A stretch of 64,000 nt of DNA from NCBI RefSeq assembly GCF_000172555.1, contig NZ_ABOX02000033.1, positions 1-64,000 on the forward strand. The letters run 5' to 3'. The notes beneath the pieces were generated by a model. The model saw nothing but the letters and a program-made list of their open reading frames with translations. It did no database searches and had not been told where the DNA came from. The translations under genes and the position numbers were made by a program. Below, in pieces: positions 424 through 33,928 of the stretch (position 1 is the stretch's first letter; each line of letters begins with the position of its first letter). Origin of the DNA: Pedosphaera parvula Ellin514 (GTDB lineage Bacteria > Verrucomicrobiota > Verrucomicrobiia > Limisphaerales > Pedosphaeraceae).

Positions 424-1796
424 AAGGCCCCGACTACATCGGTGCCTGGTGCATCTGAGGGATCGAAAATCGCTTGTGCGCCCACCGAAAACTGAGAGAA
501 CCGGGTCAACTGTAGCCGGTAAAAAGTTTCACACACCTTCTCCTGCCTCAATTCACTATTGCTGGGAAAGGCCCACGAAAACGCCGCACCTACCGTGTCA
601 TTTGCCTCGCGGCCTGCCAAACCGAGCCGGAAGCCGACCCCACCTTGGATGTAGTTACGAATGCCCAAATCGGCTTTCCCTGCATATCCCCATCGTGCGA
701 AAGCCTCAACCACATCATTAAATTGTTGGTCCGCAATGGCGGTCACCCCCCAGTCCGCAGGTTGGCCTAAACTTTCCCGCTCTCCGGCATGCCAGCCAGA
801 AAATGTGTATCGTCCCTCTCCGAGGCCCTCGAATTTCGGAGTCCATCCCAATTCCCCGTAGGAAAAGAAGGTCCATTCATCAACGAGCGAATCGATGTTG
901 ACTCTGGTGGTCGAGCTGAAGGCGTTGGCAGCCCCCGCTGTGATATAGAAATCCTGATCATTCGGCTTGAAGGATATGCCGGCGGCCGGACCGTGCCCCG
1001 GAGCGGCGACAGTCGGGTTTGCGGCAAACATCCGATTCACGAATGAGTTGTTTGCACTCTGCATCCAGGTGGAGCCAAAATAAGCCGTGGAATCCGCGCG
1101 ACCGAACATGAATCGAAACTGGCCGTCCCAGAGTCGCTGTTCCCAGTGGAGGTCACGAAGCGCTAAACCGCGGTCATTGAAAGTGTTGGCGGTGGCTACC
1201 AGCGTGGCGATCTGGGACCCAAGTGAGTTGGGAGTCCGTTCACCGATTTTGAAACGTTCCTCGAGATCGAATATGACCCGGCCTGTGTTCTCTGTGTCCT
1301 TACCTACAAGTGTCCAGGATCCCATCAGGTCGAAATCGCCCGCCCCACCGAACTGATCCCATGGTCCTCCGCTCAGACCTTGGAAGAGCATGGTATAGGC
1401 GGTGCCAATCCGTAGGCCAAGCGCATTGTACAGGTCGTCCAGGCGGTCGTACGTATAATCAAACGGCCTGGAGACTCCAGGAATTTCGAAATAACCTTTG
1501 CGCATCGTGCTGACATCCTCGATTTCGGCCTCGATGGCGGTGGGGGTCAGTCCCGGAGTCCAACCCACATGATCCACGTCTGGCCCCAGGATATAAAAAG
1601 GATGATCTTCATCGGCTGCTAACGCAGCCTGACTCAGAGTCATAGCTGCCCAGACCGGTGCGCCCACCAGCAAGAATGACTTTAAAGAGGATTTAGTTCG
1701 AACCGAAAATAACAAGACGCTCCGTTGGAGGATATGATCGCCAGGCAAAGGATTTAATCTGCAAAGCGAAAGCTTTGATCTTAATGATGATATCAT
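396..1796 (-). CDS. OprB-type carbohydrate-selective porin
   Basis: The product is 466 residues. A basic N-terminal stretch leads into a signal-like segment (KSFLLVGAPVWAAMTLSQAALA, cleavage after ALA about residue 60). The rest has the pattern of an OprB-like barrel: alternating aromatic strands, an EERFKIG/DLHWEQ region, and a C-terminal half with FYRLQL and a final VGAFWGRLRIYF strand ending in Phe. OprB porins let sugars diffuse through the outer membrane. The annotated start gives an unusually long pre-signal region, so translation may begin further in, nearer residues 27-38. It is transcribed toward the AbgT gene, 188 bp away, with a barrel-like remnant between them. Confidence 0.75.
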   Translation of the reverse strand: MISSLRSKLSLCRLNPLPGDHILQRSVLLFSVRTKSSLKSFLLVGAPVWAAMTLSQAALAADEDHPFYILGPDVDHVGWTPGLTPTAIEAEIEDVSTMRKGYFEIPGVSRPFDYTYDRLDDLYNALGLRIGTAYTMLFQGLSGGPWDQFGGAGDFDLMGSWTLVGKDTENTGRVIFDLEERFKIGERTPNSLGSQIATLVATANTFNDRGLALRDLHWEQRLWDGQFRFMFGRADSTAYFGSTWMQSANNSFVNRMFAANPTVAAPGHGPAAGISFKPNDQDFYITAGAANAFSSTTRVNIDSLVDEWTFFSYGELGWTPKFEGLGEGRYTFSGWHAGERESLGQPADWGVTAIADQQFNDVVEAFARWGYAGKADLGIRNYIQGGVGFRLGLAGREANDTVGAAFSWAFPSNSELRQEKVCETFYRLQLTRFSQFSVGAQAIFDPSDAPGTDVVGAFWGRLRIYF

Positions 1797-1953
1797 AGTT
1801 ATGTGTTTTCAATTTATTCCGCACTTAGCCGCCCGGCGTGCATCCACATTTACGAAACCACATACGTCCTTGTGAGGAGTCTAACGTCGACAAAATCATC
1901 AATGAATAGGGTGTCCACCTACTTTCCCACTTGGCAGACGCTGACATTTCCCT

Positions 1954-2823
1954 TCATCGCACTTGCGGTGGAAGCAACTGCGGAAACGCAATCCCTTCAG
2001 CTTTCAACCTGATATTCACCCGCCGATTAAGTTCCCTGCCCACGAGCAGTTGCTGCGATGGCAAAGTTTTGATGCGTGCTTTAAGAATCACGCCCCGATC
2101 CCCGAGACAATCGACACCCATCATCTCAATCCTGGAGAGTATCAGCGAGTGATACTTCTCATCGCCATAAATCTCATCACCGACACCCTCGATAATCGCA
2201 AGCGCGCGGTCCGCATCTGCTCCGTGCGCCACCGTTGTTTCGAAAACATAATAGGAATATTCGCGAGTGAGGTTCGACAACGTGGTGATCGACCCATTGG
2301 AGATCACGTGTACCGCCCCGTTTTCCCCGCGCAACACTGTCGTTCGAAGATCAATCTCCTCGACCACGCCGGTTATCTCATTGATCACCACCAAATCACC
2401 AATGCGGATCTGATCTTCGAGCAGTAGAAAGAATCCTCCCAGCCAATCCTTGATTAGAGTCTGCGCTCCCAACCCCACCGCGATGCCTGCGATGCCCAAT
2501 CCGGCCAGCAGTGGCTCGACATGGTAATTAAACTCCTTGAGAGCGGCTACCACTGCCAATGTCCAGACTACCATGTTTATGGCCTTGCGGAGGGCGGAAC
2601 TCAGCGTCTTGGCGCGCTTTTCCAAGTCGAGAGTGACGCCTTCGCGCCGCCGATCCAGAATGCGGACGATGGAACGACGTAAGCGCGGCAGGAGCCACTT
2701 GGTAAAGCGGGTGAGCAGCCAGGCGATAACCAACACCAGCACGACGCGCCCAACCTGCCCAACCCAACCCCGCCATGCCTCGGGATCCTTCACCTCCTCC
2801 AAGACTTGTTCCGGCGTCGGCAT
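1954..2823 (-). CDS. Mechanosensitive ion channel, MscS family
   Basis: The 289-residue protein has a first TM helix at about 24-45, a second at about 82-100, and the glycine/alanine-rich pore helix TM3 (AGLGIAGIAVGLGAQTLIKDWLGG) at about 108-131. The MscS beta domain follows (RIGDLVVINEITGVVEEIDLRTTVLR), then a mixed alpha/beta C-terminal vestibule. The family releases solutes from the cytoplasm on hypo-osmotic shock. The length matches minimal three-TM MscS channels. The ATG at 2823 has no obvious ribosome-binding site. It is a single gene with gaps on both sides. Confidence 0.93.
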   Translation of the reverse strand: MPTPEQVLEEVKDPEAWRGWVGQVGRVVLVLVIAWLLTRFTKWLLPRLRRSIVRILDRRREGVTLDLEKRAKTLSSALRKAINMVVWTLAVVAALKEFNYHVEPLLAGLGIAGIAVGLGAQTLIKDWLGGFFLLLEDQIRIGDLVVINEITGVVEEIDLRTTVLRGENGAVHVISNGSITTLSNLTREYSYYVFETTVAHGADADRALAIIEGVGDEIYGDEKYHSLILSRIEMMGVDCLGDRGVILKARIKTLPSQQLLVGRELNRRVNIRLKAEGIAFPQLLPPQVR

Positions 2824-3206
2824 TGTCTGAACAATTCGCTAAATAGATATGTGGTTCAAAGATACGCCAGCATGTGTCCAAGGCAACCATACCCGCGCTA
2901 AATTTATGACTTTGTACAGATCAATGGAGGCATCGAAGAAGCAAGTTACGCGGAACCCGCCACCACGTAAACTTGCGGTGCAAGAAACATCGGCTCAGTT
3001 CAAATGGAACAGCCTCCCCCTTCCTACAGTCGATCAACAAAACAATCAAACCCGCTGACACGCACAGCGGACTCCGGTAGTTGCAACGTCGCCAATCGCG
3101 TTAACACAGCCTGATGGGTCATTGCTCACCAAGGCAAACTTTCGCAACGCATTCAAAGCGCAACAGTTTCTCACCGAGCCGTGCGTGTCAGATTGATTGC
3201 GGTGAT
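2824..3206. other. Intergenic gap, 383 bp
   Basis: This lies between the 5' end of the MscS gene and the 3' end of the DUF1269 gene, both on the minus strand. It should hold the MscS promoter. I see no convincing small gene, strong hairpin or repeat in it. Confidence 0.5.
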
Positions 3207-3698
3207 CTAAGCTGGAACTTCGGCCAGTGTGTTCTGGAGTCTCTCCACTTCCTCGTGTGACAGAGATGTTTGCAGGATCTTGCCACCTGTGCCTTTGAGC
3301 TCTTCCAACACTCGATCCGGGGTTGCTTTTCTGACAAGCACGAAGAGAGCGGAACTCTGGGGTTTCATTGTGGAAGCCAGTTCCTTCATGAATTTGTCGT
3401 TGATGCCTAGATCAGTGAGTGCGCCTGACATCGCCCCGGCTGTAGCACCAATCGCCATGCCCACGAAGGGAACCATGAAGATCAGGCCGATCAGTGCCCC
3501 CCAAAATCCGCCGCCCGCCGCTCCTGCGGCTGTCAGATTGACCGTCTGGTGGAGCTTGACCTTGCCTTTGGCATCCTTGACTGCGACGACGGCGTCTTCG
3601 AGATCAATCAAGTATTGGCTTTCCATTTTTTGAAGTTTCAAACGGATTTCTTCCGCCTTGAAGGGATCATCATAACCTACAACTACCAATGTGTTCAT
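3207..3698 (-). CDS. DUF1269-family membrane-associated protein
   Basis: The 163-residue product begins MNTLVVVGYDDPFKAEE. It has a central hydrophobic glycine-rich segment (about 57-98, GAAGGGFWGALIGLIFMVPFVG and AIGATAGAMSGALTDLG) between two alpha/beta regions, the second with SALFVLVRKATPDRVLEEL. This is the layout of DUF1269 proteins, which have no established function. The glycine-zipper middle suggests membrane insertion or oligomerisation (inference). An AGGAAA ribosome-binding site precedes the ATG at 3698. A second protein of similar architecture but different sequence lies at 36569. Confidence 0.85.
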   Translation of the reverse strand: MNTLVVVGYDDPFKAEEIRLKLQKMESQYLIDLEDAVVAVKDAKGKVKLHQTVNLTAAGAAGGGFWGALIGLIFMVPFVGMAIGATAGAMSGALTDLGINDKFMKELASTMKPQSSALFVLVRKATPDRVLEELKGTGGKILQTSLSHEEVERLQNTLAEVPA

Positions 3699-3937
3699 AA
3701 GTTTCCTTTCCTTGGGTCCACGCTAGTTGTCTGGCAGTCCTTGGGTGTGCCTGTGAACGCAGGGTACGAAATCGGCACGTTCCAATTGTAGAAGACATAC
3801 CTTGGACTGTAATTGGGGTGTTCACTGTAGTGCGGAAGCTGGTAATGAACGTTTTCAATTGTTTGAAGTGGATCGTCGATCCACAACTTTATCTCTTTTG
3901 CGTGAATTTTGTTTCGAACTCAGATACAACCTTTCTT

Positions 3938-5641
3938 ATGCTTATTGGTTACGTTAGTGATGAGAACTATTGCGCGCTGAATGATGTAGCCGTCGAATTT
4001 GAACGTGACGGCAGGACTGTTGCGGTAATCCGTTCCTCGCCTTCGGGAGCCGTTAACGGAGATATCTCTGAAGGCCAATACCGAATTATTCTCGTCAAAA
4101 ATGGATATGGTTCCAAACACGTCATGGCTCAAGTTGGCGCAAATGATCCACTTCAGTTGCGCCTCCTCTCGAATTCCTTGTATGGCTACGCGTGGCCGAA
4201 GTGGGTCAAATCCGGGCAGAAAGGTGAATTACGTATCCACTCTCCTGAGCCATATTACCTGACCCTTTGGCGTTATGGTCTAAAGAAGGAATTGGTCCAA
4301 CGGATCGGCTGGTTCGATGAACATGGACCCTGCCCCAACCTACAACGCCTTCCAGATGGTGACTTCTCTCAAACGGGCGTTGGCTGGAATCGTTATGGTT
4401 TCAGTAAAAAGTATAAATCGAATGGCGAATGCAAAAAGCATGGCGCAAATACCCTCCAGTGCACTCCTGAATGTTTTTATCAGTCACAGATGGCGCCCGA
4501 ACAAACAGGTTTGTATTATTTCCACGCCGAAACGCCGTCGGGGAAATTCCTCAGCTTTCCATGGGTTGTCGCACCTGCCAGCCCGCAAGCTCCGATTGCC
4601 GTCATCGCCTCCACCAACACGTGGAATGCCTACAATAACTTTGGAGGACGCAGCAACTACATCAACCCCACCAAACTGCCCCCTCGGCCCACGATTAATT
4701 CACGCCTGGATTTGAGTCGATACGTTGGCGAGTCCAACATTTGGAGTTCCAGAAACTCCGAATATTCTCCGCTCTCGTTTGATCGTCCTGAACCCTTTAA
4801 CCAAATCCCGAGAGATGTCGAGGCAACTGATCCGATTCGCGGCAGACAGCCCTGCCACCTGGCCGAAGCCGAATGGCGTTTGCTCGCCTGGCTGGAACGC
4901 GAGGGTTTTACCTACGACTTTTACTCAGATTACCAACTGCACTCAGGTCTGCTGGATCTGGATGCCTATAAGGCCCTCATCATCAGTACGCATCCTGAAT
5001 ACTGGTCAAAGGATGCTTTTTTGCGGGTCAGGAAATGGGTTTTTGAAAAGGGTGGCAAACTGATGTATCTGGGCGGTAATGGTATTGATTGCGAAGTCGA
5101 GCTGCCCAACGAAGCCACGATGAAGTGCAATACCTGGCTGCCTAATCCCAATGGAGTGCTGCAATTTATTGAGCCCGTTGAAGGCAAAAGATACGATTGC
5201 CGCTTCCATTTTACCGTCGGCTCTCCGGCAGAATTGCTGGGAGTTGTCTTTACTGAAACCGGCGTGGCGACTTCGGCTCCCTACAAGGTAATCGATGCTT
5301 CACATTGGATATTCAGAAACACTGGATTGAAGAACGGTGACATCTTCGGCACGGAAAGCCAGCACGAACGTTGCCCGGGAGGCGCTTCGGGACACGAAAC
5401 GGATAAACGCACCCCTGCTTCTCCCAAAGGCTTGAGCCTGCTCGCACGCGGAATGAATATCAATGACGGCGGCGCAGAAATCATCTTGCATGAAACAAAA
5501 ACCGGTGGGGCGGTCTTTTCGGTCGGCTCCATTACCTGGACCGCCAGCGTCATGGTCGACAAACCAGTTTCAAAGATCACACGTAACGTGCTGGAACGTT
5601 TCTTAAAGAAGGAAAAGAAAAGGAACCGCTCAAAAGTTTAG
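3938..5641 (+). CDS. N,N-dimethylformamidase large-subunit-like protein
   Basis: From the ATG at 3938 (MLIGYVSDENYCALNDV) the product is 567 residues. The reading frame is open upstream to 3818, but that extension is not protein-like. The N-terminal third is a lectin-like beta domain (VAVEFERDG... GYGSKHVMAQVG). The middle holds the cupredoxin-like RIHSPEPYYLTLWRYG and the WNAYNNFGGRSNY stretch. The C-terminal half is glutamine-amidotransferase-like (FYSDYQLHSGLLDLDAYKALIISTHPEYWS, KLMYLGGNG). This order matches the dimethylformamidase large subunit. That family cleaves formamides at a mononuclear Fe site bound by Tyr and Glu residues, which I did not assign here. No small subunit is visible nearby. 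The real substrate is unknown; an amide is likely given the creatininase gene 283 bp downstream on the same strand. Confidence 0.75.
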   Translation: MLIGYVSDENYCALNDVAVEFERDGRTVAVIRSSPSGAVNGDISEGQYRIILVKNGYGSKHVMAQVGANDPLQLRLLSNSLYGYAWPKWVKSGQKGELRIHSPEPYYLTLWRYGLKKELVQRIGWFDEHGPCPNLQRLPDGDFSQTGVGWNRYGFSKKYKSNGECKKHGANTLQCTPECFYQSQMAPEQTGLYYFHAETPSGKFLSFPWVVAPASPQAPIAVIASTNTWNAYNNFGGRSNYINPTKLPPRPTINSRLDLSRYVGESNIWSSRNSEYSPLSFDRPEPFNQIPRDVEATDPIRGRQPCHLAEAEWRLLAWLEREGFTYDFYSDYQLHSGLLDLDAYKALIISTHPEYWSKDAFLRVRKWVFEKGGKLMYLGGNGIDCEVELPNEATMKCNTWLPNPNGVLQFIEPVEGKRYDCRFHFTVGSPAELLGVVFTETGVATSAPYKVIDASHWIFRNTGLKNGDIFGTESQHERCPGGASGHETDKRTPASPKGLSLLARGMNINDGGAEIILHETKTGGAVFSVGSITWTASVMVDKPVSKITRNVLERFLKKEKKRNRSKV

Positions 5642-5924
5642 GCGGATAACGCCTCGCTCGTGTTGGATCTCTGAAATTTCAGCGCAAACCTGTTAATTTT
5701 AGGTGAGTCATAAAGAAGATGCGGGGCCAGACGATGAATCCAGAATGCAGTGCTGGGCGCGGGCGGTGTTCAGCAACGGTTTTTGCTTGGAAGACAAAAT
5801 CGGTTTCATGGGAATTGCTGACATCTCGTCCATTTCCGCCAGCCAAGTCCTGATCCGGCTCTTCATGAACCAGCTTCCATTTTTTCCCCGCCCATGTAAC
5901 TTCTGGTCTTTTACGCCTTTTATT

Positions 5925-6668
5925 ATGAAACTTGCTGAACTTGCCTGGCCCGAGGTGGAACATTTGGATCGAGATATTATCGTCATTTATCCCATCGCCG
6001 CCCTGGAACAACACAGTCGTCATCTCCCTTTCTTTACCGATTCCATACTTTGCGATGGAGTGGCCTCCCGGCTTGAGGCTGCCTTGCCGAATGAAATCCT
6101 ATTATTGCCCGTGCAATGGCTCGGAGCCTCAGCGCATCATCTGGGCATGCCAGGGAGCTTGACAGCCCAGTCGGACACCTATCTAAACATTCTTTGTGAA
6201 CCATTGCGCTGCCTGCTGCAGCACGGCTTCCGTCGAGTGTTTATTCTTAACGGTCATGGTGGCAACATTGACGGTTTCCATCTGGCCCTGCGCCAACTGG
6301 CTCTGGAATTTCCGGACTCGGTGCTTGCAGGCGCCAGTTATTGGGATCTGGCAGATAAAGAGATTGCCGCCATCCTTCAAGGAGAGCGCAAGAATGTAGG
6401 TCACGCCTGCGAGTTTGAAACCTCCATGATGATGTATCTGCGTCCTGAGCTGGTTCGCACTTCGGAAATCGCTGACGACAAAGTTAAGAATACCTCAGAG
6501 GCTCTCAAGGGTATTTATATTCCCCTGGATTTCAAAAGGCACACTCGCCACGGCGGTTCGGGTCAGGCCACCCTCGCCACTGCAGCCAAAGGAAAACAAT
6601 TCATGGACGCAATTGTTCCCAAGTCAGTGGAGATTATAAAGGCAATCAAAGCCAGACCCATCGTCTAG
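5925..6668 (+). CDS. Creatininase-family amidohydrolase
   Basis: The ATG at 5925 gives 247 residues that begin exactly where family similarity begins (MKLAELAWPEVEHLDRD). The longer frame from 5703 adds unrelated sequence. The first metal-binding block is IYPIAALEQHSRHLPFFTDS (E28, H30 and D39 as candidate ligands). The second is the family signature LNGHGGN near residue 110, followed by a conserved CEFETSMMMYLRPELV. Creatininase-type enzymes open cyclic amides or hydrolyse formamides at a binuclear metal site. Ser in EQHS replaces the more usual Gly. It lies downstream of the dimethylformamidase-like gene on the same strand and converges with the large chimera gene. Confidence 0.88.
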   Translation: MKLAELAWPEVEHLDRDIIVIYPIAALEQHSRHLPFFTDSILCDGVASRLEAALPNEILLLPVQWLGASAHHLGMPGSLTAQSDTYLNILCEPLRCLLQHGFRRVFILNGHGGNIDGFHLALRQLALEFPDSVLAGASYWDLADKEIAAILQGERKNVGHACEFETSMMMYLRPELVRTSEIADDKVKNTSEALKGIYIPLDFKRHTRHGGSGQATLATAAKGKQFMDAIVPKSVEIIKAIKARPIV

Positions 6669-6827
6669 ATGTCGCAACGTGGTCGAGTTGGTTCAAGCAA
6701 CCAATATAAGTGATGGGTTGCATTCAGCTGACGATTGGGTCGAAGCCATTGCTGTTCACATTCCAGCTACAGCGTTACTCTGGATTGACAAGTCTTGGGC
6801 ACGAATCATTCATCAGCATTACAGTCC

Positions 6828-9800
6828 TCACTGGTCATGGTGATGGACATGCTCACTGGAGGTAGCCGCCACTGGCAGTGTAGCTTCAGGATGGGCTTGC
6901 AGGTAAGCCTCGACGTCTTTGGTTACGACCAACTGCCCCCACATCACCTGGTAATGGCCAGGGAAAGTGCAGACGTATTCGTGGTCGCCCTCAATGACTG
7001 GAGCTGTGAGCTTTAGCGTCGCTTTCTGACCTGACTCAAGCAGCTTGGTGGCGGCGAGGATGTCAGCAGTTTTAGGAATATAGGCACGACCTTCGCCATC
7101 CAGTTCATCAGGTTTCATGGTGGCAGCCGCATTCCCAACTTTTTCGCGGGTGCCGGGTTTTACAATGACGAAGTTGTGCGGCATGAAATCTCCGTTCTCA
7201 AAGATGATTTCGAATGGCTTGCCAGCTTCCACGACAAGCCGGGGTGAATCATAACGCATCTGTTCGCGGACAGTGCGGATGACGAAGACGGATACCCGCA
7301 ATTCTCGCAAGTCCTTGCGCAATTCCGCGGCCTTTTCCGCCGGAAGCAAGCCGGCAAGGTCGCTGGCGAGCTGGACAGTTTGAACATAATCTTGTGAGGT
7401 GCGATCGCCGGCGGAAACGGTTTTAGCCCAGGCCACTAGTGCCGTTGCCGCAGAACCAGCCTGCGGCTTGGGCCACGAGGCACGCGGAAGCGCGCGCATG
7501 CCCTCGGCAACGGCGGGCACCTGTTCGCCCCTGTCGATCATACCTGCCAGTGCAGTAAAGACAGCTTCCGGTTCAAAATTCATGCTGACACTGGCACGAA
7601 CGGCGGCACGGCGGATCGAACCAATTGGATCGCCACCGATGGCTATACGGGCGCTCCCGATCGGCGCAGGATTTTCCATCTTTTTGAAAACCTCCCTACG
7701 GTCACCACCCAACACGGTTAGGGTGAAGCCTTCCAGACGATTTCCAAACTCGCCTTCGGTTCGATTCCACACCACGATCGAATCGATGTGCTGACTGGAA
7801 CCCAGGTCTACTTCCCACCATGGATGATCTTCGTTCTCCTTCGAATGGGTTTGGGTGCCGCTGCCGAAATCACCATCAGTGCGGCCATCAATCGCTCTTG
7901 CAGCCTCGCCTCCGTTCGTTGTGCTGGATTGTTTTGCCTTGCCTTGAAGCGCGACGTTTTTTCCGTCACTAAAGACCTGTACCTCGGCAAGGGTGAGTGT
8001 CCCCCGACGGGGAAGTTCGATGCGCACAAAGCGACCGGAAAAGTTTTGGCTGTCTTTGGCGAGAGTTTGCAGGTCCGCGGGCAGTTCGGTAAGGAGCGGC
8101 TTCACTTTGCCATAGGCCTTGGCCCGGAAGTCGGAATCATTCAGGAGTGGAATTCCGTTGAGTAAGTCAACCAGCGCTGCTGGAGACTTTGAAGCCGCGC
8201 TCCAGACGGTATCGAACGAATTGTCAGCAAGGGCCAGCCCGGCCCAGGCAGCCTGGCGCACCTCCATGGAGCTCTTTGCGGAAGTGAGTTTGGTCAGATG
8301 CGCGCGCTCCGCCTTCAATTCATCCGGTAGCTGCCAGGGGAGCAGACGGGCAAAACCAGCGGCTGCGGGCGAGTCGGTTTCATTGGCAGAATCAATAGCT
8401 CCAAGCAATACAGAGACGCGAGTGGTTTGGCGCGCCTTGGCGATTTCAGTCAGTGCCGCGAGGCGGTCCGGGTCGGCAGCATCCGGCCGCGCAAAGAGGG
8501 CTTCCAGAACGCCGCGTGTGCGCGGCAGCTTCATTAACTCGGGAGTGTTGATGCTACGAAGCAGGTATTTGAGGCCGTCTGGGTTATCGGCAGCCAAAGG
8601 CTGGCCGGCAGCGATGGCTTTGTGCCAAACAGGATCGAGCTGCCGAAGCGTTTCGTGGAGCGTATAATCGAGATAATAATCTGTCGGGTGTTTAAGCGCG
8701 GTGAGGGCCACATCGACGCTTTCGGCAGTTTGAAAGAAACTTGCGGCACGTACAGCTTCAAGGCGCACGCGCGGGTTCTCGTCGTCAGCCAGGGATTTGA
8801 ACAGGGTAATTGCCTCTGGCACACGATCACGCCAGTAGCAAAGAACCCGGCCAGCGGCGGCACGAGCACGGGGTTCTGGCGAATGGAGCATGCGTTTGAG
8901 GAGATCGGCGTCCACGCTGTTGTGCCATTGATGGACCCATAATGCTTCCATTATATGATGTTCGTAAGCCGGGTCGTTTTTATCAAGCTTCGTGACCCAC
9001 TTCTTCACTGCGGCGATGACTTCTTTCGTATTGCGTTTGCCGAGTTCCACCTTCGCGAGTTCACGGGTGCGGTTTTCCGGTTCCTTCAACAATTCAAGTA
9101 ATGCCGGAATCGGCTGGCCATCAATCTTGGCCGGTTTTAGCAAGGGCCGGCCTTCATACGTGATACGGTAAATGCGACCATGTTCGTGGTCCCGGTTCGG
9201 ATCGCGAAGATGATGCTGCATGTGTCCGATCAGGGGCTTTTGCCAGTCGCAGAAGTAGATGGCGCCATCGGGTCCAATGCTCACCGCGGATGGTCGAAAA
9301 TTCGGATCGCTCGAACTGATGAGATTTTCCTGTGTTTCGCCTTTCAGCCCTGAACCCTCTTCAGTGACTTTCACAAGGTAAATGCCCTGGAAGCCAATGA
9401 CATTAAGGTTCATAAAATTCCCCTGGAACTCCTCCGGGAAGTGACGGCTGTTTATTATTCCCGTGCCGGGACAAGGGCGTGATGGACGGTTCCAAAACTC
9501 CTTCATGCTGGAATGCTTGGCGGGATAATCGATGTGGCCACTGAATGCAGGACCGAAATAAGTGTTATTTCCGGTGGCATCAGTGATTAGATCATTGCCC
9601 CAATAATCAAAAACCCGGCCATGCGGATTCGCAAAACCATACGAAACATAAGTTTCGAACCTGCCGGTGCGAGGCTCGTAACGATAAATCGCGGCGTCAT
9701 TATTACGGACAGGGCCTTTGGCGGTTTCCACCTGCGAGCGATGAAACACGCCGTCACTCAAATAAATCGAACCGCCGGGATCAAGACAGATGGCGTTCGC

Positions 9801-11300
9801 GGTATGGTGAGAATCGGCTGAATCCATGCCCATAAGCACGCGTTCCTTCCAATCGGCTTTTCCATCACCGTTCCTATCACGCACGAACCACAGATCGGGC
9901 GCCTGCATGAGCAGCACGCCGTCCTTGTAAAACTGGAAGCCCGTGGGAGCGTTCAAGTCACCAATGAACTCAGTGCATTTGTCCGCCTTGCCGTCGCCAT
10001 TGGTATCTTCCAGGATGATGAGGCTATCCCCCACTTTGCTGTCAGGCGTGCGCTCGGGATAGTTCCTCCAGGCAGCAACCCAGAGACGGCCCTTGGTATC
10101 CCAGGCCATTTGCACAGGGTTGGCGAGTTCGGGAAACTGTTCCTCACTCGCAAACAGGTTCACCTTCATACCGGAATGGACGGTCATTTTCGCGATGGCA
10201 GCTTCGCCACCGAGGAAGGGATAAGATTCATCCGGATTCGACCCTGGACGATTGGAACGGACTTTTTCGACGGGTGGCAGATTGGAATCATCCACGACAA
10301 GATCGCCTCCCTTGGCGACCGCCCAGACCCGTTTATCACGATTGGCCGTGAGGACATCACGTTGTGACATTTCTTCCTGCATGACCCGATAATTGGAGAT
10401 ATAAGGTGCTGAAGCATTGCGATCGGAAATAAACCCGCCCTTTCCGGGCTCATAGGCAAGGGCCGACCGTCCTCCATAGACATTGTAACCATCCACGGTG
10501 CGGTAACGTGCATGCCATTCAGCATTCTTCTCGTTCACCGCCAAACGCAGTCTCTCAAAGTTTCCGGTGCGCAGTTCAATACTGGTTGCAGGAATTTTCT
10601 CCCCGAAAAGCCCTTGAAACATCGCATCGGCAAGTAGCTTGTCGCCTGCTTCGCTGAGATGGAAGCCATCGACTGTGAGGGATTGTTTTCGTTGGCCGAC
10701 CTCAGCGTAGAGATGTTGGGATGGGCCAAAAAGATCGATGAACTGAACGCCATTGGCTCGTGCCACTTCCGCCATGGCTGCTGTGTATTCCTGGAGGTTT
10801 GCATTGTTTTGAATTGGATCCGGCAAATTGGAATCTTGATGCTTTTCACAGGCGATGGGCGAAAACAACACGATGCGCGGATGCCCTTTGCCGGAATAGT
10901 CGTTCGCCAGGGTGTCTTTCAGGAACTTGTCCAGGTCGGCCTTGAACTTCCCAACACCATCATGGCCTTTGAAAGACTCATTAAAGCCGAAAAAGGCGAG
11001 GATCACGTCAGCCTTTGTCTTTTTGAGCCATTCGTCAGGGGAACCAAAATTTTCCGAACGGTTACGAACGGAAATCTCGTCTCCTGCGACCGCCAGATTG
11101 CGAAAGACAAGATCGTGCTGCGGATACTTTGAGTAGATCAGGGTTTCAAGCCAGCCGGAATGCTGAAAACGATCCGCCAAACCATTGCCAATGATGGCAA
11201 TATGATCACCTTTCTTGAGTTCCAGTTTTGATGACGGTTGCGCCTGGGTGAATGAAGCGCAGAAAGCAATCAGCAGAATGGTTAAAGTTTTAAGCTTCAT
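6828..11300 (-). CDS. Secreted chimera: SGNH hydrolase, PVC dehydrogenase propeller, HEAT, discoidin-like, azurin-like copper domain
   Basis: The product is 1490 residues with a signal peptide (MKLKTLTILLIAFCASFTQA). Residues about 30-235 are an SGNH/GDSL-like domain (IAIIGNGLADR, FFGFNES, DGFHLSEAGD). Residues about 365-715 are the PVC membrane-bound dehydrogenase propeller (MAWDTKGRLWVAAWRNYPE, NPHGRVFDYWG, IGPDGAIYFCDW). Residues about 740-1070 are HEAT-like helices. Residues about 1088-1207 are an F5/8 type C-like domain (AIDGRTDGDF, HPWWEVDLGS). Residues about 1330-1462 are a blue-copper domain with H1375 in MPHNF, then C1444, H1449 and M1453 in CTFPGHYQVM. That spacing matches azurin. 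The tail is His-rich (HVHHHDQ). There is no CxxCH, unlike its two paralogues here. It probably oxidises a carbohydrate-derived substrate outside the cytoplasm and passes electrons to copper (inference). Confidence 0.88.
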   Translation of the reverse strand: MKLKTLTILLIAFCASFTQAQPSSKLELKKGDHIAIIGNGLADRFQHSGWLETLIYSKYPQHDLVFRNLAVAGDEISVRNRSENFGSPDEWLKKTKADVILAFFGFNESFKGHDGVGKFKADLDKFLKDTLANDYSGKGHPRIVLFSPIACEKHQDSNLPDPIQNNANLQEYTAAMAEVARANGVQFIDLFGPSQHLYAEVGQRKQSLTVDGFHLSEAGDKLLADAMFQGLFGEKIPATSIELRTGNFERLRLAVNEKNAEWHARYRTVDGYNVYGGRSALAYEPGKGGFISDRNASAPYISNYRVMQEEMSQRDVLTANRDKRVWAVAKGGDLVVDDSNLPPVEKVRSNRPGSNPDESYPFLGGEAAIAKMTVHSGMKVNLFASEEQFPELANPVQMAWDTKGRLWVAAWRNYPERTPDSKVGDSLIILEDTNGDGKADKCTEFIGDLNAPTGFQFYKDGVLLMQAPDLWFVRDRNGDGKADWKERVLMGMDSADSHHTANAICLDPGGSIYLSDGVFHRSQVETAKGPVRNNDAAIYRYEPRTGRFETYVSYGFANPHGRVFDYWGNDLITDATGNNTYFGPAFSGHIDYPAKHSSMKEFWNRPSRPCPGTGIINSRHFPEEFQGNFMNLNVIGFQGIYLVKVTEEGSGLKGETQENLISSSDPNFRPSAVSIGPDGAIYFCDWQKPLIGHMQHHLRDPNRDHEHGRIYRITYEGRPLLKPAKIDGQPIPALLELLKEPENRTRELAKVELGKRNTKEVIAAVKKWVTKLDKNDPAYEHHIMEALWVHQWHNSVDADLLKRMLHSPEPRARAAAGRVLCYWRDRVPEAITLFKSLADDENPRVRLEAVRAASFFQTAESVDVALTALKHPTDYYLDYTLHETLRQLDPVWHKAIAAGQPLAADNPDGLKYLLRSINTPELMKLPRTRGVLEALFARPDAADPDRLAALTEIAKARQTTRVSVLLGAIDSANETDSPAAAGFARLLPWQLPDELKAERAHLTKLTSAKSSMEVRQAAWAGLALADNSFDTVWSAASKSPAALVDLLNGIPLLNDSDFRAKAYGKVKPLLTELPADLQTLAKDSQNFSGRFVRIELPRRGTLTLAEVQVFSDGKNVALQGKAKQSSTTNGGEAARAIDGRTDGDFGSGTQTHSKENEDHPWWEVDLGSSQHIDSIVVWNRTEGEFGNRLEGFTLTVLGGDRREVFKKMENPAPIGSARIAIGGDPIGSIRRAAVRASVSMNFEPEAVFTALAGMIDRGEQVPAVAEGMRALPRASWPKPQAGSAATALVAWAKTVSAGDRTSQDYVQTVQLASDLAGLLPAEKAAELRKDLRELRVSVFVIRTVREQMRYDSPRLVVEAGKPFEIIFENGDFMPHNFVIVKPGTREKVGNAAATMKPDELDGEGRAYIPKTADILAATKLLESGQKATLKLTAPVIEGDHEYVCTFPGHYQVMWGQLVVTKDVEAYLQAHPEATLPVAATSSEHVHHHDQ

Positions 11301-13836: not shown

Positions 13837-14571
13837 TCATTGAAGCGGATACAGATCCAACCGCCGGAAGAAGACCTCCGCACCCTCGGTTTGAAGCAGT
13901 ATCTTACCCGCGTTAGGGATCGCGTTAGTTCCGGCCAAAGTCCTATGACCATTAACGCTAATCGCTACCGTGTTGCCGTCACAGATGACCTTGATTGTAT
14001 TCCACTCGCCATGTGGCTTCTCGATTTCATGCGGGCCGCGGAAACCAAGTTCATCCTTCCATGGGTTTCGACCCGGCCTGTCAAAACGCTCAATCCTTGG
14101 TCCCTTCGTTACTCCATCCACCGTGAGGTAAGCGCCGCTCACCACCAAAATATCTCCTGTGCCGCCTTCAATCATCTGGCATTCAATCGACTTTGGCCAC
14201 ACCTGGTCCTTGCCCACCGCATGCACCAAAATGCCACTATCCCGCGCATTCTTTTGACGTGGTTCCCAGGCTTTTTCACCCCATTTAAATTCAGCAATCA
14301 GGCAGTAGTTCGAATAATCCTTCTTTGTGGCCAAATAACCAAAATCCTGGCCGCTGACACGCAACACCCCGTTGGTAATTGTGAAAACTCCATATGGATC
14401 GTTGGTTGTCCCCTGCCCCTTGAGGAATGAATAAAACGGCCCTAAATCCTTTCCATTCAGCAGGTGAACAACCTTGGTTTGTTCCTTGTGTGTCGTCGTT
14501 GAACACGCACTGGCCAGAAGCACAAAGATTAAAACGGACAAGTTTTTTAGATAACTATTGGGATTTTGCAT
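13837..14571 (-). CDS. DUF1080 (3-keto-disaccharide hydrolase-like) lipoprotein
   Basis: The ATG at 14571 gives MQNPNSYLKNLSVLIFVLLASAC, a lipoprotein signal with Cys at 23, and a 244-residue product. The longer frame from 14637 starts with unrelated sequence. The body is the concanavalin-like DUF1080 fold: LNGKDLGPFYSFL, GYLATKKDYSNYCLIAEFKWG, NARDSGILVHAVGKDQVWPKSIECQMIEGGTGD and a final GKILLQTEGAEVFFRRLDLYP. The family is expanded in PVC and Bacteroidetes genomes, where some members cleave 3-keto-glycosides. It follows the PVC dehydrogenase on the same strand with a 71-bp gap, so a pathway of sugar oxidation and then cleavage of the keto-sugar is plausible (inference). Confidence 0.88.
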   Translation of the reverse strand: MQNPNSYLKNLSVLIFVLLASACSTTTHKEQTKVVHLLNGKDLGPFYSFLKGQGTTNDPYGVFTITNGVLRVSGQDFGYLATKKDYSNYCLIAEFKWGEKAWEPRQKNARDSGILVHAVGKDQVWPKSIECQMIEGGTGDILVVSGAYLTVDGVTKGPRIERFDRPGRNPWKDELGFRGPHEIEKPHGEWNTIKVICDGNTVAISVNGHRTLAGTNAIPNAGKILLQTEGAEVFFRRLDLYPLQ

Positions 14572-14642
14572 GCAAATTGAATTAGAAGCCGCGAAAGTTA
14601 TCCGGGCAAGCAAGAAAATGCAGGCAACCGCTTTCACTGTTC

Positions 14643-17600
14643 TTAATGTTTGTGAGCTTCCAGGAATTCATTTCCATTCTGGGCTTGAAGGAAAGCCAAT
14701 AGATCCAGCAATTCCGATTTTGTAAGTGCAGTATCCAGGCCTTCCGGCATGATTGAAATTGTGCCGGCAGTTAAGGAACGAATTTCCTTGCGCGGAATTC
14801 TCAACTCGGTGTTCGCTGCCGTTTTTAGAATCACCACATCCGCAGTTTCGCCCGCTATGAGCCCGGTATAGGTCTCGTCTCTGGTTTCAATTCGAAAAGG
14901 CTCGTAACCGGGCACGAAGCTGGCGCTGGGGAATACAATCGCCTCAAGAATATCACGACCGGAGCGGATGGAACCGATCGAGGTCAGGTCAGGTGCGAGC
15001 GTTGCTCCTTCTTTGCCGATTGCATGACAAGTTGAGCAACTGGCCTTGGGACCAAAGAATATTCTCCGGCCGCGTCCCACATCGCCACCGCTGAGCAACG
15101 ACTCCATTTCATTCAATCGCTGGATTCGCGCGACTTGCTGACCCTGGATGCGGGCCAGCAGGGGCTTGGCTGCCATTTGCACCCTTTTCGGAAAATGTTG
15201 TAAAAGCTGCTCCAGTTTTCCGCCACTAAGCAGATTAATATCCATCTTGGATTGAGTCAGTGATTCCACCAATGCCTGTCCCGTCCCATCGCTCCCTGCA
15301 TTCCGAAATGCATCCAGCAATGGCGTCACGGTCAAGGCGTCTGCCTGCATCAATGGGCCATTCGCGACCCGGAGCAGATCTGCATCGCTCAGTCTGGCTT
15401 GTCTGAGGACATGTGCGGCTGAAACCCTTAGAGTTGCATCGATTCCCGGCTGGAATTGGGCCAGCAACAATTCCATGGCAGCTTCAGTCAGTTGTGGTTG
15501 GCGGTTTACGATAGTGGATAGTGTAGCCACTCGCAACGCGGTGGGTTCATTATTGGCAGCAACAATCTCTTTCAAGCTCGCATCCAGATCAGCAATGTTT
15601 CGACTACGCAGCAGCGTCACCACGCGGAGGCGCTCTCTGTCATCTTTCGCGTGAAGCAGTTTATCGAATTGCGCGATCCAGGGTGCTGGAAACGGTTGGA
15701 TGGCGCAACGGTCCATCACGTCCAGCAGGAACAGCTTTCGATCAACGCTCAAGGCTTCATTTCCAAGCAATTCCGCCAACATCTTTTGCAAGTCCTTATT
15801 GCCGCTCAACGAGAGCAAGGCTTCCCGGACAGAATCAGCTTCATCGGCGGGCAATTTCTCTTCGCTGAGCCGGGACTGCAAGACGTTTACCACTTCGCCG
15901 GACCAGTCTGGGTGATGCGAAACAACCCACAGGGCTGCGCGCCACAGTTCCTTGTCCTTACTCTGGAGAAGAGGCGCCATTGTCCCCTGCTGTAGTGGAC
16001 TTCCGTCCATTTGATCAAGCGCGATCAGCGCAGCTCTTTGTCGGCCGGAATTGGGAACCTTCAAAGCCTCCATCAGTTGCGCAGGCTCCTTCAGTTGGAT
16101 GAGCGCGTAAATCACCGCGTGCTCCTCAAACCGATCACTCATCTTCGTCGCAGCTTCCAACAACGCCGGCACGCAGCCGGGATCACCCATTCGCCCCAGG
16201 GCAGTCGCAGTCTCCCGGCGAACTGCTGGATCTGCGGTTTTGACCAATTTTATCAGGGATCCTGCCGCAGCTTTGTCTTTCGCCAGTCCCAACGCTTTGA
16301 TCGCGGCAATCTGAACTTCCAAATGACCATCATTAATTGCCTCCTGCAAGACTCCCTGCGCCTGGGGTGAACCAATCCGCATTAAAGCCCAAACCACAGC
16401 GCAATGCGCCTCAACTGATGGTGAACTTCCGCGTAATCGTGCCAATTCTATAACTGAATCTTCTCCGCGCTGCACGGCCATCTCCTGCGCCCGCTCACGC
16501 ACTTTCGGGCGCGCATCCTCAAATAATCCCACTAATTCATGCGGACTCATTTTATCAAAATTCAACTTCAATCCTCGCGGATCAGCCACCTGCGCAACGT
16601 CATTCTTTCGAATGCGATATATTCCGCCGCGTTTTTCGGGCTTCGACACCCGTGACAATGGACATTGATCCACGTACCAACCCCCCGTATCCACCACCAG
16701 CAAGCTCCCATCAGCATCCTCCAGAATATCCGTGGGATGAAAATCCGGGTCGGTCGAGGTCAAAAAATCTTCATCTTCAGTGCGAAATGTCGCGCCGTCG
16801 CGGAACAGTCGATGCCGCTGAACGCGATGCGGATTGAACTGGGCGCTAAAAAGATTGCCCTGATACTCGCTGCCGAAACTGGTGCCCTCATACCTGGCCA
16901 GTCCTGCCGGCGCGATCCGCGCAAATTTTGTCATGGGCGGCATCAGGTCTCCCGTCAGTTTGAATTCTTTGACGCAATCATGATATTTCCGGTAAACCCC
17001 GCCTTCGATCCAGTGCATCAAAGCGTCACGTTGACCATTCATAGGATCGGTGAAATACGTCATCGTTCCGAACATTTCCCCGCTCGGTGCAAATACAAGC
17101 TCCACTGGATTATCAAAACCGCCGCCACAAAATGATTCCAGTTTGCTTCCGTCGGGTTGCAGTCGCCATATTCGCGAGGCCAATCCTTTCAACTCAGTCT
17201 CTTCTTTCGTTTTGATATCGAAGCCATGCCGTCCATCAGTGAGATACAACCAGCCGTCCGGACCGAAAAATGGCCCATGCAAACTGGCAGTCCCGCGCAC
17301 GTTCCAACCCGTCAAAAGTACCGTTCGTTGCTCCGCCACTCCATCCCCATCCTTATCATCGAAGCGCAACAAATCTGGCGGTGATGCCACATATATGGAA
17401 CCTCCATGACAGGCGATTCCCATCGGAATGCCGACCTTATCTGCATAAACCGTCACCCGGTCATACAAACCATTTCCCTTGGTGTCCTCCAACATCAAGA
17501 TCCGACACTCTGGCTTTTGGGCCATGTCGAGCCCGTGGATATTCTTGCCGGAAGATTGCGTTATGAAAAGTCTGCCGCGATCATCAAATGCGCCAAACAT

Positions 17601-17771
17601 CGCGTACGGCACCTGGTCCAGCCCGGCGGCCTGTTCCACACTAAAGCCCTTTGGCACGCGAATCACAAACTCACCGGTTGTTTTCAGCTCACCAGCGGCC
17701 AATTGATCGCTGGGCGCAGTGATGCACAACATAATTATCGCCGTGAAAACTTTGACTGCGCTTAGTCTCAT
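14643..17771 (-). CDS. PVC-type secreted dehydrogenase with HEAT repeats and C-terminal haem c
   Basis: The ATG at 17771 gives 1042 residues with a signal peptide (MRLSAVKVFTAIIMLCITAPSDQLAAG). The GTG four codons upstream is a weaker start. Residues about 45-400 form the PVC dehydrogenase propeller (AMFGAFDDRGRLFITQS, MGIACHGGSIYVASPPDLLRF, LHGPFFGPDGWLYLTDGRHG). Residues about 410-880 are HEAT repeats (RRETATALGRMGDPGCVPALL). The C-terminal domain carries one haem-binding CSTCH (C912, C915, H916) and the PVC-type LAPDLTSIGS and SASFVPGYEPFRIETRDE segments. It should act in the periplasm as a quinoprotein-like oxidase passing electrons to haem c (inference; substrate unknown). It lies 105 bp after the gamma-glutamyltransferase gene and before the DUF1080 gene. 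Confidence 0.9.
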   Translation of the reverse strand: MRLSAVKVFTAIIMLCITAPSDQLAAGELKTTGEFVIRVPKGFSVEQAAGLDQVPYAMFGAFDDRGRLFITQSSGKNIHGLDMAQKPECRILMLEDTKGNGLYDRVTVYADKVGIPMGIACHGGSIYVASPPDLLRFDDKDGDGVAEQRTVLLTGWNVRGTASLHGPFFGPDGWLYLTDGRHGFDIKTKEETELKGLASRIWRLQPDGSKLESFCGGGFDNPVELVFAPSGEMFGTMTYFTDPMNGQRDALMHWIEGGVYRKYHDCVKEFKLTGDLMPPMTKFARIAPAGLARYEGTSFGSEYQGNLFSAQFNPHRVQRHRLFRDGATFRTEDEDFLTSTDPDFHPTDILEDADGSLLVVDTGGWYVDQCPLSRVSKPEKRGGIYRIRKNDVAQVADPRGLKLNFDKMSPHELVGLFEDARPKVRERAQEMAVQRGEDSVIELARLRGSSPSVEAHCAVVWALMRIGSPQAQGVLQEAINDGHLEVQIAAIKALGLAKDKAAAGSLIKLVKTADPAVRRETATALGRMGDPGCVPALLEAATKMSDRFEEHAVIYALIQLKEPAQLMEALKVPNSGRQRAALIALDQMDGSPLQQGTMAPLLQSKDKELWRAALWVVSHHPDWSGEVVNVLQSRLSEEKLPADEADSVREALLSLSGNKDLQKMLAELLGNEALSVDRKLFLLDVMDRCAIQPFPAPWIAQFDKLLHAKDDRERLRVVTLLRSRNIADLDASLKEIVAANNEPTALRVATLSTIVNRQPQLTEAAMELLLAQFQPGIDATLRVSAAHVLRQARLSDADLLRVANGPLMQADALTVTPLLDAFRNAGSDGTGQALVESLTQSKMDINLLSGGKLEQLLQHFPKRVQMAAKPLLARIQGQQVARIQRLNEMESLLSGGDVGRGRRIFFGPKASCSTCHAIGKEGATLAPDLTSIGSIRSGRDILEAIVFPSASFVPGYEPFRIETRDETYTGLIAGETADVVILKTAANTELRIPRKEIRSLTAGTISIMPEGLDTALTKSELLDLLAFLQAQNGNEFLEAHKH

Positions 17772-17876
17772 GATTAATCGCACATTCGTTGTACAGCTAT
17801 AAAATCGTTCCGGAGCCTCAATGCCGAAAAACGATTTCTCCCAAGCTTATTCAGACCACCATTTCTGCTTTGATAT

Positions 17877-31015: not shown

Positions 31016-33928
31016 ATGAAAAAAACTGTCCTCTTCACCGCCTCATTGCTCACGGCAGTCCTCGTTCACGCTGTAACGGATGGGCCGCTTACACCCGAAC
31101 AAGCCATCGCCTCGTTCCGACTCGATCCCGGTCTGAAAATAGAATGTGTCGCCCAGGAACCGATGGTCGTTAGCCCCGTTGCTGCCGCATGGGATGAAAA
31201 AGGCCGGATGTATGTGGTGGAAGATCGCGGTTATCCCGTCGGTCCCGGCAAGGGCAAGAAGCCCGTTGGCCAGGTGGTTCTCCTCGAAAGCACTCACCAC
31301 GACGGCCATTATGATAAACGCACGGTCTTTGCGGATGGACTCACCTTTCCCAATGGCGTCATGTGTTGGAAGGGCGGCGTTTATGTCACCTGTGCTCCCT
31401 ATCTTTATTATTTTAAGGACACCGATGGCGATGGCGTGGCGGATGTGAAACAAATTGTCTTCAAAGGTTTTCAAGACCTTTCCACCACGCAATTGCGTGT
31501 GAGCCATCCCATTCTAAATGTCGATGGTTGGGTTTATCTCACTTCGGGTTTAACCAGCGCCAAGGTTTCCTCACCTATTTACACCAATCATCCAGTCGTA
31601 TTCTGCAATCGCACCGATTTTCGTTTCAAACCTGACACCGACCAGTTTGAACCCACCGCCGGTACTGCGCAATTTGGCGAAACGTTCGATAGTTTTGGCC
31701 ACAAGTTCATTTGCTCGAATCGCAATCATAATCAAGCGGTAATGATGCAGTTGAAGTATCTCAATCGAAACACAAACGCCGCTCTTGCTGATATCGTGGA
31801 GGATATTCCTGATCACGGCGCAGCCTCCAAACTTTATCCTCTCAGCGACAACATCACGACCAGTGCCTTGCACACAGGCTTTTTTACCTCGGCGTGCGGC
31901 ATTAATTATTATCGTGGCACCGCATTGCCGGACGATTACAAGGACAATTCGTTTACCTGCGAACCCGCTGGCAATCTGGTGCACCGCGATGTCATCTCTC
32001 CCACGAATACCAGCTTCGTCGCCAAACGCGCGCAGGATGGTGTCGATTTCCTCGCCTCGCCTGACAATTGGTTTCGTCCGGTCAATCTCGCTACCGGGCC
32101 GGACGGTGCGCTTTACGTCTGCGACATGTATCGCAAGACCATTGAACATCCGGAATACCTCCCGGAAGCCACGCGTAAAATCACCGACTTTGAAAGCGGC
32201 AAGGATAAAGGTCGCATCTACCGCATCACAGCTGCGAGCTACAAGGTTCAGACTAAACAGTTTGATGTTTCGACCTCGAAGGAGCTCTGCGAGCTATTAA
32301 ATAGCCCGGATGCATGGTGGCGCACCACGGCCCAGCGTCTTCTATTGGAACGGCAGGACAAGTCTGTTGCATCCACGTTAAAGAAGATGGTCAAGAGCGG
32401 AAAAATTCCCGAAGCCCGTGTATTGGCTCTCCGGTTGTTGGAGTGCTTGAACTCCTTGGAGGATCAACAAATTCTTACTGCGCTTTCCGACAAAAATGTC
32501 TCGGTCCGCGAAAATGCCATGCAAGTTGCCGAGCCACGTCTGTCGCAATCTTCAAGGCTGACCGAGCGGCTCCTGGCCATGGCCAATGACTCCGATGCAC
32601 GCGTCCGTTTCCAATGCGCCCTATCCCTTGGTGAACTGCATGATGCCAAAATCATTCCCGCCCTCGCGAAAATTCTTGATCAAAACAACGACGATAAATG
32701 GACCCGTGAAGCGGTTTTAAGCGCTGTCGACAACCACGCAGACGTATTGCTGAAAACCCTGCTCGCCGGAAAAAATAAGGATGCCGCCGGAATGTCCGCC
32801 ATGTTGGTTGAACTCTGCCGCATTCTTGGAACGAGTGAAACGCCTGACAAACTGGCTTCGTTGCTAAACCAGGTTACTGCATCCAACTCGGATGCGGATG
32901 CTGCCTGGCAACAAGCCGCTGTCACCGGTATTGCCGAAGGCATCCGGGTTCGTGGTCTGGTCGGTAAGGATCAATCCCCGCTCCTCAGCCTTACCAGCGG
33001 TGATTCTACAGAGGCCAAACTTACCCGCGTTCGTGTTGAAGAACTTGTGCAACGCGCAGTCAGCTCAGTCAAAGATGCCAACGCCTCCTTAAGCCAGCGC
33101 CTGGCTGCGGTTGGTTTGCTTGCTCAATCTGAGTTCTCGGTCAGTGGGAAAACTCTGCAAAGCCTTATTGATCCGCAACAACCCGCGGAGCTTCAAGTTG
33201 CTGCCGTCCGCGCCTTGGGTCGGATGCCGGATGCAGACGCCGGTACGGTTCTGGTCAGGAAGGATCGTTGGAGCAGTTATAGCCCTCCGGTTCGGGATGC
33301 CGCTCTCACCTCGATCATGGCCAAACCCCGGCTTATCCAAACCATGCTTATCGCCATCGAATCCGGCGACGTCCCGGCATGGACAGTCAATGAAGACCGC
33401 CGAACCCAGTTAATGCATAACAAGGATGAATCCATCGCCAAACGCGCGAGCGCCATCTTCAAAGATATGCAAGCTGGTGACCGTATGAAGGTGTATGAAG
33501 AATATAAATCCGTCCTGGCCTTCAAACCTGATTCGAAGAACGGCCATGCCATTTTCACAAAAACCTGCACTGGCTGCCACGTGGTGTCGGGCGAAGGCAA
33601 GACCGTCGGACCGGATCTCACCGGCATACGCAATCAGCCCAGCGACGTTCTCCTCCTCCACATCATCGTACCCGAATACGAGATCATGCCCACTTACACC
33701 TGCTATAATGTAGAGACGAAGGATGGGCGTTCTCTAACTGGACTCCTGGCTGCAGAATCAGCTTCAAACATCACGCTCAGACAGGCTTTGGGGCACGAGG
33801 AAATCATTCCCCGCTCGAACATTGCTTCCATGTCCGCCAGCAGCCTCTCGCTCATGCCTGATGAATTGGAGAAGACTATGAGCAAACAGGACATGGCCGA
33901 TCTGGTCGGGTTCTTGAAGGGAATGTAG
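31016..33928 (+). CDS. PVC-type secreted dehydrogenase with HEAT repeats and C-terminal haem c
   Basis: The product is 970 residues with a signal peptide (MKKTVLFTASLLTAVLVHAV). Residues about 30-410 are the dehydrogenase propeller (VSPVAAAWDEKGRMYVVEDRGYP, FPNGVMCWKGGVYVTCAPYLYYFKDTDGDG, NLATGPDGALYVCDMYRKTIEHPEYLP). Residues about 420-800 are HEAT repeats. The C-terminal haem site is CTGCH (C851, C854, H855), followed by TVGPDLTGIRNQP and the tail SLSLMPDELEKTMSKQDMADLVGFLKGM. It is the second cytochrome-type paralogue of the window and the partner of the ceramidase-like gene. Confidence 0.92.
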   Translation: MKKTVLFTASLLTAVLVHAVTDGPLTPEQAIASFRLDPGLKIECVAQEPMVVSPVAAAWDEKGRMYVVEDRGYPVGPGKGKKPVGQVVLLESTHHDGHYDKRTVFADGLTFPNGVMCWKGGVYVTCAPYLYYFKDTDGDGVADVKQIVFKGFQDLSTTQLRVSHPILNVDGWVYLTSGLTSAKVSSPIYTNHPVVFCNRTDFRFKPDTDQFEPTAGTAQFGETFDSFGHKFICSNRNHNQAVMMQLKYLNRNTNAALADIVEDIPDHGAASKLYPLSDNITTSALHTGFFTSACGINYYRGTALPDDYKDNSFTCEPAGNLVHRDVISPTNTSFVAKRAQDGVDFLASPDNWFRPVNLATGPDGALYVCDMYRKTIEHPEYLPEATRKITDFESGKDKGRIYRITAASYKVQTKQFDVSTSKELCELLNSPDAWWRTTAQRLLLERQDKSVASTLKKMVKSGKIPEARVLALRLLECLNSLEDQQILTALSDKNVSVRENAMQVAEPRLSQSSRLTERLLAMANDSDARVRFQCALSLGELHDAKIIPALAKILDQNNDDKWTREAVLSAVDNHADVLLKTLLAGKNKDAAGMSAMLVELCRILGTSETPDKLASLLNQVTASNSDADAAWQQAAVTGIAEGIRVRGLVGKDQSPLLSLTSGDSTEAKLTRVRVEELVQRAVSSVKDANASLSQRLAAVGLLAQSEFSVSGKTLQSLIDPQQPAELQVAAVRALGRMPDADAGTVLVRKDRWSSYSPPVRDAALTSIMAKPRLIQTMLIAIESGDVPAWTVNEDRRTQLMHNKDESIAKRASAIFKDMQAGDRMKVYEEYKSVLAFKPDSKNGHAIFTKTCTGCHVVSGEGKTVGPDLTGIRNQPSDVLLLHIIVPEYEIMPTYTCYNVETKDGRSLTGLLAAESASNITLRQALGHEEIIPRSNIASMSASSLSLMPDELEKTMSKQDMADLVGFLKGM

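Follow-up and report, generated by a model that had tools for sequence, protein, structure and literature searches.

The minus-strand gene at 6828-11300 in Pedosphaera parvula Ellin514, a soil-type member of the Verrucomicrobiota, encodes a member of the DUF7133/TIGR02604 family that lacks that family's haem, and its 1490-residue product ends in a predicted blue-copper domain. The window is the whole stretch of DNA analyzed, 64,000 nucleotides of contig NZ_ABOX02000033.1, and positions refer to it unless another locus is named. We give roughly even chances to the interpretation that the product is a secreted PVC/DUF7133 propeller dehydrogenase that combines a non-catalytic SGNH domain, a tethered blue-copper relay, and an optional carbohydrate-binding discoidin domain, and that acts on a probably sugar-like substrate.

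Gene and domain architecture

The open reading frame begins at an ATG codon, and the probability that it would stay open by chance at this composition is ~5e-27. Scans of the predicted secreted, multidomain product against Pfam and NCBIfam matched Lipase_GDSL_2 at residues 44-221 (1.3e-12), DUF7133 at 366-580 (2.8e-66) together with TIGR02604 (7.9e-63), HEAT_2 at 799-877, F5_F8_type_C_2 at 1135-1196 (1.3e-11), and Copper-bind at 1345-1459 (7.4e-9). A plain Sec-type signal peptide (MKLKTLTILLIAFCASFTQA) was recognized by eye. The length and the domains given in the initial annotation were therefore recovered, in the order signal peptide, SGNH domain, helical region, DUF7133/TIGR02604 propeller, HEAT repeats, discoidin domain, HEAT repeats, and cupredoxin (Table 1). 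The discoidin domain interrupts the HEAT solenoid and is optional; it is missing from some orthologs in which the remaining domains are intact, and in the structural model the helices restart behind it.

Table 1. Features of the gene for the predicted copper-ended dehydrogenase, in window coordinates
Feature	Position	Strand	Basis or remark
Whole gene	6828..11300	(-)	1490 aa, secreted (predicted), multidomain
Signal peptide, residues 1-20	11241..11300	(-)	By eye
Degenerate SGNH domain, residues 22-235	10596..11237	(-)	Pfam; fold, Z 20.2 to 7br2; active-site residues
Gly40 at SGNH nucleophile position	codon 11181-11183	(-)	Alignment
Helical accessory region, residues 236-340	10281..10595	(-)	7br2 fold match reaches into the region
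DUF7133/TIGR02604 propeller, residues 366-720	9141..10205	(-)	Pfam, NCBIfam, fold comparison
Propeller H498	codon 9807-9809	(-)	Aligns with motif His of glucose/sorbosone dehydrogenase
HEAT solenoid, residues 735-1075	8076..9098	(-)	Pfam, model
Discoidin domain (F5/8 type C), residues 1086-1219	7644..8045	(-)	Pfam; optional insertion in HEAT solenoid
Second HEAT stretch, residues 1220-1335	7296..7643	(-)	Model, relatives
Auracyanin/azurin-type blue-copper domain (predicted), residues 1336-1465	6906..7295	(-)	Fold, ligands, alignment
Copper ligand H1375	codon 7176-7178	(-)	
Copper ligand C1444	codon 6969-6971	(-)	
Copper ligand H1449	codon 6954-6956	(-)	
Copper ligand M1453	codon 6942-6944	(-)	
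His-rich C-terminal tail EHVHHHDQ	6831..6854	(-)	Similar HxH tails in many relatives

The C-terminal copper domain

The initial annotation had reported copper ligands in azurin spacing and no CxxCH motif, and both observations hold: CxxCH is absent from the entire chain, and H1375, C1444, H1449, and M1453 are all intact and fall on the type 1 copper ligands when the domain is aligned with auracyanin and azurin. A sequence search identified auracyanin A (2aan, E 4e-13) as the nearest solved relative, followed by other auracyanins and azurins. Structure prediction and alignment of the C-terminal residues, proposed earlier as checks, returned a cupredoxin fold; when modeled with AlphaFold as part of residues 340-1490, the domain superimposes on auracyanin 6kol with a Z score of 14.8 (rmsd 2.1 over 116 residues, 32% identity), on 2aan with a Z score of 14.5 (rmsd 2.0-2.1 over 116 residues for the two auracyanins), and on azurins with Z scores of ~13-14. 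Across 71 distinct aligned rows, the His, Cys, and His ligands are invariant and the Met is kept in 70. The match to the azurin model TIGR02695 reaches 33 of 105.1 bits, under the equivalog cut-off. The copper-site assignment is carried by fold and alignment, which make the C terminus a predicted type 1 copper domain with auracyanin, rather than azurin proper, as its nearer relative.

Haem-type relatives and the two-gene layout

A C-terminal CxxCH haem domain is part of the NCBI name of family TIGR02604. As had been annotated, the two other PVC dehydrogenases in the window (14643-17783 and 31016-33928) end in CxxCH haem domains, here matched by TIGR02603. The genome holds ~21 PVC dehydrogenases, among which the 6828-11300 product is the sole azurin-ended one; a CxxCH motif is present in nearly all of the rest.

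The initial annotation suggested that the electron acceptor had been swapped. It is correct that the 1490-residue protein has an azurin-like domain where its relatives have haem c, but the idea of simple replacement is contradicted by a set of relatives in which the protein is divided between two genes. In 12 of 58 genomes of an order-level sample, the dehydrogenase half terminates at the equivalent of residues 888-889. Ten of these 12 genomes, and one further locus (L055), yielded a second protein, which begins at about residue 906 and consists of HEAT repeats, azurin, and then a TIGR02603-type haem c domain. The partner gene lies 38-454 bp downstream in L074 and L076-L079, overlaps in L083, is 1968 bp away in L055, and is on another contig in G024, G043, and G051. 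The apparent two-ORF state of another genome (G033) was discarded as an artifact of a run of N's. In the nearest relatives with two genes, a single polypeptide retains both azurin and haem c, which fits an added or upstream copper relay better than a simple exchange of haem for copper.

Trees of the two halves disagree on how the fused and split forms branch. In the tree of the propeller half, the split clade falls inside the fused set, with monophyly of the fused proteins not rejected (p-AU 0.33), and in the tree of the C-terminal half, the fused set forms one clade (100/100) and the nested tree is rejected (p 0.0007).

Many fused proteins end in His-rich tails (e.g., EHVHHHDQ, GHVHQHGE, EHKH, and DHGH). 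Such tails also end many of the split azurin-haem partners, despite the intervening haem domain. They possibly have a role in copper loading.

The degenerate SGNH domain

Structure comparison assigned the N-terminal domain to the SGNH alpha/beta/alpha fold, with a Z score of 20.2 to BT4096 (7br2) over 280 residues and ~15 to Axe2-type esterases; the 7br2 alignment covers model residues 1-311 and thus also takes in part of the helical region at 236-340. The initial annotation regarded the domain as an active hydrolase and joined hydrolase, oxidase, and electron carrier into an all-in-one degradation enzyme. That scheme, with all three working on one substrate, is favored by the fold and by the retention of the oxyanion-hole residues Gly73 and Asn107 and of the block V pair D211/H214 (Asp-x-x-His), but it founders on the nucleophile. 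The block I Ser, on which all members of the family depend (PMC9487903), is replaced by Gly40 within G38-N39-G40, which the initial annotation had overlooked, and the column is variable among 59 aligned sequences (Ala 23, Ser 12, Thr 9, Gly 9, Glu 2, Val 2, Met 1, and Leu 1). In block V, Asn takes the place of the Asp in 54 of 61 aligned sequences, and the His is gone in 15 of 61. True SGNH proteins of the same phylum aligned with the same profile, four of them free-standing and one a partial frame (L181, L184, L187, L188, and L190), show GDS at the nucleophile column. An active esterase was therefore rejected and the label "hydrolase" is unsafe; judged from its residues, the domain is probably catalytically dead, and the all-in-one enzyme is highly improbable.

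Away from the nucleophile position, the degenerate group shows strong conservation (R44, D74-E75, and N107-E108-S109), which suggests a retained binding function. The annotation "GDSL hydrolase" on such SGNH-propeller proteins is probably wrong. Degenerate SGNH domains with GNT or GGT in place of GDS also occur in short frames without a dehydrogenase (L177-L180, L182, L183, L185, and L186).

The propeller and its cofactor

The propeller scores well over the curated cut-offs of TIGR02604 (213 of 122 bits) and DUF7133 (225 of 27 bits). Fold comparison matched it, at Z scores of 13-14, with the six-bladed PQQ propellers of AA12 pyranose dehydrogenases and soluble glucose dehydrogenase, in a model of which about half has a pLDDT of <50. 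Searched as a profile against the PDB, the propeller returned weak matches only, to glucose/sorbosone dehydrogenase. In a weak profile alignment to the glucose/sorbosone dehydrogenase of L161, H498 (in D-S-H-H) falls on the motif His, and the Arg of the G-x-R-N motif corresponds to Ala. A search for PqqC found none in the window genome (G000), which is 95.9% complete, and none in 17 of the 19 further genomes sampled. Because of the Ala at the motif Arg and the PqqC result, PQQ is doubtful as a cofactor unless it is scavenged.

The degenerate SGNH domain, a propeller with no proven cofactor site, the many binding-type domains, and the His-rich tail would also suit a surface protein with no enzymatic activity, in which the propeller, SGNH, and discoidin domains would be glycan binders and the cupredoxin would have a structural role or serve to store or sense copper. 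We consider such a protein unlikely, given that the full set of copper ligands is retained in nearly every aligned row, that no other domain is as conserved as the propeller (90% identity within the genus; 71-85% for the remaining fused orthologs in the order sample), and that the split layout fuses azurin to haem c.

Indications of the substrate

Gene context provides no substrate, because no conserved operon was found around the fused gene; its neighbors in the window (a creatininase family gene and DMFA2_C) do not recur. Indications come instead from related proteins. In three genomes of one family (L129:2142-6298, L133:2362-6303, and L143:3822-8958), a 3-keto-disaccharide hydrolase, a blue-copper domain, and PA14 are fused in one protein whose gene adjoins a DUF7133 propeller gene. 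In the window, a 3-keto-disaccharide hydrolase gene (13837-14637) lies 5 bp from the haem-type PVC dehydrogenase gene at 14643-17783 on the same strand. In the literature searched, the only assayed PVC dehydrogenase found was Lac161_ORF7 (PVC dehydrogenase-HEAT-haem), which was purified and reported as a beta-galactosidase that hydrolyzed lactose with a Km of 1.8 mM (PMC5342196). From these three analogies, a sugar or glycoside is the probable substrate, and the azurin-3-keto-disaccharide hydrolase fusion supplies a concrete candidate substrate class.

The lactose hydrolysis and the same fusions could also be taken to mean that the propeller cleaves glycosides as Lac161_ORF7 does, via transient oxidation of the sugar, and that the copper merely resets a redox cofactor. 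Net and transient oxidation are not separable by sequence, the hydrolysis is a single report concerning a haem-type relative, and the Pfam scan found no glycosidase signature in the 1490-residue protein; we consider glycoside cleavage of this kind quite improbable.

Distribution of the fused form

The fused SGNH-propeller-HEAT-azurin protein was detected in 16 of the 58 genomes of the order-level sample, in some of them without the discoidin domain, and these orthologs share 57-76% identity where one stretch spans the chain. Natural relatives also include a shorter protein of 964 aa (L117) and an ortholog of 1475 aa in G308, whose genome is a single contig. Among 288 genomes sampled across the phylum, an azurin match was present in 46, of which 17 were in frames of >800 codons; SGNH, propeller, and azurin occurred in one chain in 13 genomes besides the window genome, and none of these chains contains CxxCH. 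The one pattern scan that reached outside Verrucomicrobiota returned matches from Verrucomicrobia only. Within class Verrucomicrobiae, SGNH-propeller proteins that end in azurin are common. The initial annotation had asked whether the domain order was both common and already described: it is common, and in literature that included a minority of subscription journals, no description of the combination of TIGR02604 with azurin was found. The word "fused" does not occur in a survey that examined 3147 Verrucomicrobia genomes and counted azurin genes in 238 of them (PMC8779525).

Azurin-like domains also end other large proteins. In L089, two adjacent genes are azurin-ended (1729-4656 and 5781-8384); one encodes a short SGNH-propeller-azurin protein of 975 aa and the second a DUF6797 protein in which the copper Met is Thr (CTFPGHWQVTRG). 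A second group of large azurin-ended proteins has a weak propeller match (L122, L127, L128, L130, L131, L134, L137, L138, L140, and L142). The members scanned (L122, L127, and L128) contain DUF6797, and L122 and L128 also a xylose-isomerase-like barrel.

Proposed mechanism

In the mechanism that we propose, the propeller would oxidize a small, probably sugar-like substrate, and electrons would move from it to the blue-copper domain tethered at its own C terminus through the HEAT solenoid. The copper domain would then reduce a separate acceptor, either a cytochrome c or a terminal oxidase; the window genome has heme-copper oxidases, which could be the end acceptor. In the split relatives, the acceptor would be the haem that shares a chain with the copper. 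The N-terminal SGNH domain would have no catalytic role and would serve in docking or binding, and the discoidin domain would be an optional carbohydrate-binding insert. A dehydrogenase role for the propeller is proposed because of its likeness to AA12 and PQQ dehydrogenases, which lies partly in a low-confidence region of the model, and because of the aligned motif His. The relay is proposed because the domain has an azurin/auracyanin fold with four ligands and because the split partner is a HEAT-azurin-haem c protein. The C-terminal copper is placed at the electron exit because other PVC dehydrogenases hold haem c there, the usual site of electron exit.

More broadly, and with somewhat less than even confidence, we propose that cupredoxin-terminated dehydrogenases form an undescribed group extending across class Verrucomicrobiae, with a copper exit of their own, a two-gene copper-to-haem wire, and a dead esterase reused for substrate binding. 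The coupling of copper domain to haem in some relatives hints at an electron wire that is seemingly undescribed. PVC dehydrogenases are numerous in the window genome, and one assayed member was found in the literature; the copper-ended subfamily and its natural copper-haem partner make the electron path directly testable by spectroscopy.

Comparison with known systems

The 1490-residue protein resembles haem c PVC dehydrogenases (TIGR02604 with HEAT and TIGR02603, as in Lac161_ORF7 and the 14643-17783 and 31016-33928 products) in its DUF7133 propeller, HEAT repeats, and C-terminal redox domain, and differs from them in the predicted blue copper in place of haem c, the N-terminal degenerate SGNH domain, and the discoidin insert. 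Its likeness to the AA12 pyranose dehydrogenases and to soluble glucose dehydrogenase with PQQ (6h7t, 6jt5, and 1cq1) would lie in a propeller fold, modeled partly at low confidence, and in the motif His, placed by a weak alignment; the sequences are barely related, and the PQQ-contact Arg does not appear to be kept. The N-terminal domain has the fold of the BT4096-type SGNH hydrolase (7br2), with a match that runs into the helical region behind it, but not the nucleophile Ser. The copper domain shares its predicted fold, the His-Cys-His-Met site, and the C-x4-H-x3-M loop (here CTFPGHYQVM) with auracyanins A and B and with azurin (2aan, 6kol, 1qhq, and P. aeruginosa azurin); unlike those small free proteins, it is tethered to a dehydrogenase, and the axial Gly of azurin is Pro1374.
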